Shown here in pieces: positions 467-1,162 of a stretch of 10,713 nt of DNA. Position 1 is the first letter of the stretch, and the number at the start of each line of letters is the position of its first letter. Below the pieces are notes generated by a model. It searched no databases, was not told where the DNA came from, and worked only from the letters and a program-made list of their open reading frames with translations. The DNA is from Desulfobacteraceae bacterium (GTDB lineage Bacteria; Desulfobacterota; Desulfobacteria; Desulfobacterales; UBA11574). The stretch lies in NCBI GenBank assembly GCA_002868985.1, contig PKTV01000258.1:1-10713 (forward strand). Direction: 5' to 3'. The position numbers and the translations under genes are program-made.

Positions 467-1162
467 ATGAGTTTGACACCTGAAACGCTCGAAGGTGTGG
501 TGGTCGTTTCTCCGCCGGAAGCTCTCAAAATCCAGTCCGAGGGGGGCATGCTCATCGCTGCCTTCACTCACATGACCGACTGGTGCATGAGACGCGCCTC
601 CGGGTCCGTCCACATCACCATGGATGTTCCCAAAGATCATAAGCGGCCCGATTTCGATCTGGCCCAGGCCGAGTTCGACGTCGAAGCCCTTCCCAAGGAC
701 AAAGACATACCCCTGGTCTTCTATTGTGCCGACAATCTTTGATGGAAATCCTATCACGCCGCCAGGCTGGCGGTAACCCAAAACTACACCAGAGTCCACT
801 GGATGCGGGTCGGGATGAAGGGCTGGATGGACGCCTTCTTCGCCATTGAAACCGATTCCAGGCTTCTTCAGAACATCATGTTCGCCAACCAAAGCAACCC
901 TGCCGCACGGGTCATCGGAATTGACAAGGCCAAGGCCCTGAGAAATCCGGTCTTGGTTGACTTCCGGTCAGCCGATAAATTTAAGGAGGGACATGTAGAA
1001 AATGCTGTCAATATTCCTTACGAGGAGTTGTGGACCTTTGACAACCTTGAAAAACTCAACAAGAGCAAGGAGCTTGTCATTATTCACGACGACCCGGTGG
1101 TCGCAGGCGTTCTGGTCGTTTCCTTCAGGCTTCTCGAGTATCGCACCTACATTCTAATCTAA
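467..1162 (+). CDS. Tandem rhodanese-domain protein, probable selenoprotein (Sec92, TGA at 740-742)
   Basis: Two rhodanese-like domains, 231 residues if the in-frame TGA at 740-742 is read through. Start is ATG 467, 7 nt after AGGAG. Domain 1 (about residues 10-130) has the active-site strand VFYC (Cys87) followed by ADNL, the TGA codon (92) and WKSYHAARLA. This matches the C-x4-C-x2-S-x2-A loop of many periplasmic/redox rhodaneses with Sec in place of the second Cys. The frame then stays open for 140 codons with continuous homology-like sequence (VHWMRVGMKGW, then VLVDFRSADKFKEGHVENAVNIP). Domain 2 (about 150-231) lacks a catalytic Cys (HDD at that position) and stops before the usual C-terminal GG-x3-W motif. 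Rhodaneses move sulfane sulfur or reduce thiol substrates; a CX4U site suggests redox use. By eye the gene is more GC-rich than its neighbours. Alternatives are a plain nonsense mutation giving a pseudogene, or a sequencing error. Confidence 0.72.
758..774 (+). promoter_or_regulatory. Candidate bacterial SECIS hairpin
   Basis: Directly downstream of the in-frame TGA (740-742), CCGCCA (759-764) and TGGCGG (768-773) form a perfect 6-bp stem, extended by a G758-U774 wobble, around a GGC loop (765-767). The first loop G is preceded by 22 nt after the TGA. The known rule for bacterial SECIS elements is a short stem-loop with a G among the first loop bases, roughly 16-37 nt after UGA, bound by SelB. 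The apical CAGGCUG resembles the CAGGUCUG loop of E. coli fdhF. The stem also encodes AARLA of the rhodanese helix, so coding constraint could produce it by chance. Confidence 0.6.

Follow-up and report, generated by a model that had tools for sequence, protein, structure and literature searches.

The gene and its flanking signals

The sequence analysed here, referred to as the window, is a stretch of 10,713 nucleotides from an uncultured member of the Desulfobacteraceae (contig PKTV01000258.1, assembly GCA_002868985.1). On its forward strand a single frame extends from an ATG at position 467 to a TAA ending at 1162, and its sole internal stop is a TGA at 740–742, codon 92. If this TGA is read as selenocysteine, as suggested by the frame and by comparison with related sequences, the product is a protein of 231 residues with two rhodanese domains in tandem. 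A ribosome-binding site, AAAGGAG, is predicted from the sequence at 454–460 and ends 6 nt 5' of the ATG. The codon of Cys87 (725–727) lies five residues N-terminal of the TGA, in the loop context CADNL-U-WKS, and alignment as well as the predicted model put it where rhodaneses have their catalytic cysteine. The continuous frame, the good ribosome-binding site and the position of Cys87 had all been proposed in an initial annotation and were found as described. The terminator which it had placed after the gene was recovered in part: the terminator scan gave an 11-pair GC-rich stem (1189–1216, strand undefined), but this scores as a terminator for the minus strand only. The stem is located between the selenoprotein gene and a convergent gene for a BamE/DUF3862-like lipoprotein, and the score belongs to the strand of the lipoprotein gene.

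Conservation of the UGA codon and the cysteine column

In a sample of 389 genomes of the same order, 40 matched the protein at E<=1e-10, in 43 listed places. The TGA is kept in all 28 strong places (E<1e-50), which comprise the window and 27 relatives from altogether 27 genomes, and according to the motif reading it falls at one and the same codon in each of them. A search of genome contigs gave the same result for six of six related loci, four of which duplicate sequences in the order set. At the level of the family, seven of 24 genomes, the window's own included, matched at E<=1e-20, with a TGA in seven of eight places, the eighth being a C-terminal piece that lies at the end of a contig. 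Among 395 genomes of the phylum 13 matched at E<=1e-15, in 14 places altogether; all four strong ones (E<1e-100; G132 twice, G000, which is the window's own genome, and G700) carry the TGA, and among the ten weak ones the loop motif occurs only in L101, with a Cys, while one other has a TAG inside.

The distribution of the gene is patchy, as 17 of the 24 family genomes, including three of the four others of the genus, gave no match at E<=1e-20. One genome of the same genus (L079) has a truncated N-terminal copy near position 2988 on the plus strand, opposite a full-length gene nearby. Two types of the protein can be distinguished, one without a signal-like segment (the window, CADNxUWKSYHAARLAV) and one with such a segment (CASxTUWKSYHAARLAV), the latter being 39–45% identical to the window protein; signals were judged by eye, and by this measure no evident signal peptide was found in the window protein. 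A comparison of 22 loci revealed no shared neighbour that would point to a substrate. The only common neighbour is the response-regulator frame of the window, with a 34% match to frames in L018 and L022, which we interpret as a generic paralogue. Among themselves, L017, L018 and L022 do have neighbours in common.

A profile search of a large protein database matched 130 proteins, and the 120 listed were sorted by a loose pattern into 86 C-terminal pieces, 25 proteins ending one residue before the UGA, two with Trp at the UGA place and seven others (two shorter N-terminal pieces and five single-domain rhodaneses). Nearly all listed two-domain copies are thus broken at the UGA, just as had been expected of standard annotation. 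Among these 120 of 130 matches there was no intact two-domain protein with Cys in the column, and no Cys form of the full two-domain protein was found in the strong places of the order sample either. Cys does occupy the UGA column in four of the single-domain proteins (P0116 and P0118–P0120; CNxxECWKSYK). In the same order there is in addition a triple-rhodanese family with 19 motif sites in ten loci, nine with TGA and ten with Cys, and in three of its genes (L059, L082, L083) repeat 1 carries the TGA and repeat 2 the Cys. Three other triple-rhodanese proteins (L085, L086, L087) carry a TGA in repeat 1 as well as in repeat 2.

The expectation that homologues would show either Cys or TGA at residue 92 is therefore borne out by the 28 strong places on the one hand and by P0116, P0118–P0120 and ten of the 19 triple-rhodanese sites on the other. 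An unrelated residue, which had been named as evidence to the contrary, occurs in the single-domain P0117, with Gly at this place and Ser instead of Cys87. Taken together, the comparison supports the view that selenocysteine takes the Cys place at residue 92.

The codons past the UGA are, as judged from substitution patterns, under purifying selection. For the part 3' of the UGA the dN/dS of the window was 0.150 against L021, 0.149 against L017, 0.135 against L018 and 0.191 against L026; the values of 0.172 for L019 and 0.113 for L020 are unreliable, with dS near or above 2. For the part 5' of the UGA, dN/dS was 0.00–0.32 in the five computable pairs.

The predicted SECIS hairpin

A candidate bacterial SECIS hairpin, CCGCCA-GGC-TGGCGG, is located at 759–773 on the forward strand, as judged by its fold, its conservation and published rules. 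The arms CCGCCA (759–764) and TGGCGG (768–773) enclose the loop GGC (765–767), and an outer G-U pair (758–774) is also predicted. Both features pointed out in the initial annotation, a stem starting 16 nt past the TGA and a loop that begins with G, could be confirmed, the loop itself being 22 nt past the TGA. The RNA from 740 to 790 folds at −15.9 kcal/mol (z −2.80), with two of 200 dinucleotide shuffles equally stable, and the 42 nt following the UGA fold at −11.8 kcal/mol. The bSECIS rules given in PMC13188914 describe a loop of 3–9 nt with a G in the first two positions, a stem of 4–16 bp, a distance of 16–37 nt from the UGA and a minimum free energy of at most −7.5; with its loop GGC, 6–7 bp, 22 nt and −11.8 kcal/mol the window lies within all of them. 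When compared with 1000 synonymous recodings, support from the window alone is modest (p 0.016), the six pairs being present in 4.4% of the recodings.

The hairpin was further compared on distinct 48-mers, the removal of duplicates reducing 49 to 46 sites. The UWKS count omits 15 of the 43 order places which had E>1e-50, including C-terminal pieces in G308, G390 and G011, and the Cys and UKLS groups were obtained by a motif search requiring the loop pattern, so that they consist of sites with this pattern only. All 29 UWKS sites, the window among them, form the six pairs, compared with three of seven UKLS sites and none of the ten Cys sites; in the remaining four UKLS sites, four or five pairs are made in the window register. 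Because the Cys sites, like the UKLS sites, come from the triple-rhodanese family, the fair contrast is that of three in seven UKLS with none in ten Cys sites. Two pairs fall on third codon positions and are unbroken in all 29 UWKS and seven UKLS sites, namely pair 18–30, counted in nucleotides after the UGA (C-G in 26 and T-A in three of the UWKS sites), and pair 21–27 (C-G in 28, T-A in one); they are held in five and four of the ten Cys sites, respectively. Synonymous recoding gave a mean z of −1.78 for UWKS, −2.79 for UKLS and −0.55 for Cys sites, with p<0.05 in 15 of 29, five of seven and none of ten. Since single sequences are often not significant (L019, for example, has a z of +0.34), the case for the hairpin rests on the whole set, and its support derives from conservation across sequences.

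Synonymous variation in 29 sequences was 0.202 at codons 6–11 past the UGA versus 0.464 in 30 other conserved columns, and none of 20000 random column sets was as low. It is lower still at codons 1–5 (0.146, four columns), so that codons outside the stem are constrained as well. The Arg codon of the loop is AGG in 28 of 28 sequences with Arg (one sequence has Ser), whereas in the rest of these genes AGG accounts for 26 of 176 Arg codons. All sequences used for the hairpin and synonymous statistics are kin, and the figures do not represent independent events. Five weak Rfam matches between 400 and 1300 were all below the gathering score (best E 0.029) and none lies at the hairpin; viral contigs contained no exact match to the UGA-hairpin pattern.

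Selenocysteine machinery and other genes with in-frame TGA

The genome assembly to which the window belongs (3.05 Mb, 577 contigs) is 89.74% complete with 5.17% contamination. The sel-gene check proposed along with the initial annotation, in which absence of these genes speaks formally against a selenoprotein, had a divided outcome in this incomplete assembly: selD is present, but selA, selB and tRNA-Sec were not found. Eight SelB matches were all under the cut-off, and the best of them (L007) reads as EF-Tu. The selD gene (L015, contig C415, 1471–2529) has itself an in-frame TGA in a CGU motif, at a residue where other SelDs have Cys, and its product is probably a selenoprotein too. A C-x4-C rhodanese (YCGFVKCGRSH) is encoded upstream of this selD, with another reading frame between them. 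Moreover, two of four FlpD/MvhD matches in the same genome have a TGA at Cys columns of sister copies (GGUHxGDC in L110, contig C316; CSYUGYTA in L111, contig C483), at two different columns, and the copy L109 has Cys at both. Including selD, three other genes of the own genome thus contain an in-frame TGA.

In most of the relatives searched the machinery is present. We detected selA in six of seven genomes, the six being those which gave L017–L022, and in four of five genomes of the genus, one of them partial; the miss is the own genome in both cases, and the six L017–L022 genomes and the four others of the genus apparently have one assembly in common. selB was present in seven of ten genomes and not found in G000, G023 and G028, the latter two being apparently one assembly because their matches coincide. 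Rfam reported tRNA-Sec over the cut-off in eight of ten genomes, a count that is too high because ARAGORN identifies the match in G026 (L067) as tRNA-Trp; none was found in G000 or G008. ARAGORN itself gave tRNA-SeC (tca) in six of seven scanned loci of relatives. The simplest account for the gap in the own genome is a missing piece of the assembly, because otherwise several TGA-bearing genes would all have to be broken.

Domain structure and active-site residues

Pfam PF00581 matches the read-through protein in two stretches with 59.4 bits (gathering score 22.2), while the two halves scored separately reach 14.5 and 37.2 bits. The first rhodanese domain extends approximately from residue 45 to 121 (599–829), as derived from the Pfam match of the first piece (40–89) and the NCBIfam TsoB match (72–141). 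The second corresponds to the Pfam match at residues 160–211 (944–1099). An alignment of 12 sequences, a selection of those available, shows no variation at Cys87 or at residue 92, and in none of them does the second domain contain a catalytic Cys.

A model predicted from six sequences has moderate confidence (pLDDT 75.9, pTM 0.51). In this model the strand 83–86 stops just ahead of Cys87, and the helix 94–104 begins after Sec92. Cys87 therefore shows the rhodanese hallmark of a catalytic Cys ending the central strand, which domain 2 does not. Among relatives of solved structure, 6mxv is the best match by sequence profile (E 2.6e-11). A PDB fold search of the model gave as top matches the tandem rhodaneses and sulfurtransferases 6mxv, 1yt8 and 1urh, and the persulfide reductase 3nt6 ranked tenth (E 2e-3). 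Whole-chain superposition was poor for the nine best matches (TM 0.29–0.33, rmsd 12–19 A).

Relationship to known rhodanese selenoproteins

The text of a 2026 review (PMC13188914) catalogues five rhodanese-like selenoprotein forms. The window protein, with U92-W-K-S95, fits the family and motif of form 1 (PF00581, UxxS, WP_010941598.1); this likeness is one of family and motif. The best NCBIfam match, TsoB (NF045694, residues 72–141, E 2.9e-13), is a rhodanese/DsbD fusion-like selenoprotein, but the window protein stays far below the cut-off (48.8 versus 805 bits), has 231 residues versus a model length of 572 and contains one Sec, compared with two in the UxxxxU of TsoB as the review describes it (PMC13188914). 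Similarly, the cut-offs were not reached for TIGR03865 (PQQ-dependent catabolism-associated CXXCW motif protein, PQQ_CXXCW; residues 77–127, E 3.6e-10, 40 versus 128.05 bits) and for rhodanese_LYCAU (NF041203, form 3, CxU; 24.5 versus 115 bits).

SseA-type tandem sulfurtransferases (1urh, rank 4 in the fold search) also have two rhodanese domains. In canonical tandem sulfurtransferases the C-terminal domain is the active one, whereas in the window protein the active residues are in the N-terminal domain and the C-terminal domain has none.

A Sec-containing rhodanese-like domain has been described for Deltaproteobacteria-bbl (Desulfobacterales) as well, where it is ranked among previously characterised types (PMC8318568); our comparison with it is by description only. 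Further entries are a rhodanese-like sulfurtransferase tabulated with the figures 24 and 25, taken as organisms and proteins (PMC5029168), several rows of Sec sulfurtransferases in ocean data (PMC2398784) and three Sec rhodanese-related sequences (PMC1088965). Among the literature matches listed, subscription papers and supplements aside, no paper described a two-domain, Sec-only form. Rhodanese selenoproteins as such are therefore already catalogued, and the window gene adds a member with two domains, for which a Cys version was not found.

Proposed mechanism and alternative explanations

Judged by sequence comparison, the frame at 467–1162 is almost certainly a bacterial selenoprotein gene. 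The explanation that accounts best for the whole, namely Sec decoding at UGA 92 in a tandem rhodanese, has in our estimation a probability of about 0.9. According to it, codon 92 would be read as selenocysteine via the SelB/tRNA-Sec route, with the hairpin 16 nt downstream directing the insertion, and the product would consist of an N-terminal domain whose extended loop reads Cys87-x4-Sec92-W-K-S, followed by a C-terminal rhodanese domain that lacks the catalytic Cys. Cys87 would accept sulfane sulfur or a thiol in the manner of rhodaneses, Sec92, located where the helix following the loop begins, would attack the sulfur bound to Cys87, resulting in a Cys87-Sec92 selenenyl-sulfide, and a cellular reductant would reopen the latter. 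We infer this couple from the invariance of both residues in the 12 sequences, the second domain without catalytic Cys, the model and the fold matches; the thiol/selenol redox pair that had been suggested for these residues is plausible. For this chemistry, which would make the protein a persulfide or disulfide reductase or a sulfurtransferase instead of a cyanide rhodanese, we see about even odds.

Alternatively, the protein could be a selenoprotein in which Sec92 performs peroxide, oxyanion or metal chemistry and Cys87 acts as resolving residue, with no sulfur transfer. The usual rhodanese loop has six residues and that of the window is longer, and the second domain without Cys would agree with such a function as well. 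Likewise, nearly all selenoproteins of known function are antioxidant and most predicted ones are thiol-oxidoreductase-like, according to the text of PMC9312934. On the other hand, the closest matches in the PDB (6mxv, 1yt8, 1urh) belong to the rhodaneses and sulfurtransferases, and the list includes the persulfide reductase 3nt6 (rank 10), and we consider this alternative unlikely, if still a serious competitor to sulfur chemistry. Much less probable is a selenium-sensitive switch, in which a part-domain product of 91 residues would be made without selenium, possibly followed by a restart at 803: an ATG at this position does start a frame of 119 amino acids, but a stop at 91 would remove the helix and the strand which the model shows after the loop.

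A pseudogene or assembly error, where the TGA represents a nonsense mutation or sequencing fault in a formerly intact Cys gene, would be in line with the lack of detected selA, selB and tRNA-Sec in the own assembly, with the truncated second N-terminal copy in the same-genus genome and with the C-terminal pieces of G308 and G390, which have a TAA in the stretch. It is nevertheless very improbable in view of the identical TGA in 28 of 28 strong places and the purifying selection past the UGA. Least probable of all is that this lineage uses code 4, with UGA for tryptophan. W is indeed found at the place of residue 92 in the database proteins P0009 and P0010, but this Trp probably originates from gene calling under code 4; calls of this type are possibly a wider source of false Trp in metagenome selenoproteins. 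Further, the other relatives read have Cys in this column and not Trp, TGA serves as the stop of the GAF gene in the window, and selA occurs in four members of the genus.

Returning to the selenoprotein with a Cys87/Sec92 couple, we tentatively suggest, with rather less than even confidence, a Sec-only subfamily of tandem rhodaneses in relatives of sulfate reducers, for which, unlike nearly all selenoproteins, a Cys version of the same architecture would not exist. It would comprise the forms with and without a signal-like segment, and its Cys-x4-Sec would constitute a dedicated persulfide-to-selenenyl-sulfide redox switch within one loop.

Conclusion

Our analysis suggests that an uncultured relative of the sulfate reducers possesses a sulfur-handling rhodanese with an active-site loop completed by selenocysteine. 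As the listed two-domain copies in the database are almost all broken in two at the UGA, with Trp at this place in two others, a conserved sulfur/selenium protein of anaerobes has been overlooked. Clear selenoprotein genes may be present even in a metagenome assembly where selA, selB and tRNA-Sec are not detected. Since a Cys version of the two-domain form was not found, this protein is a good case to ask what selenium adds to a rhodanese loop.
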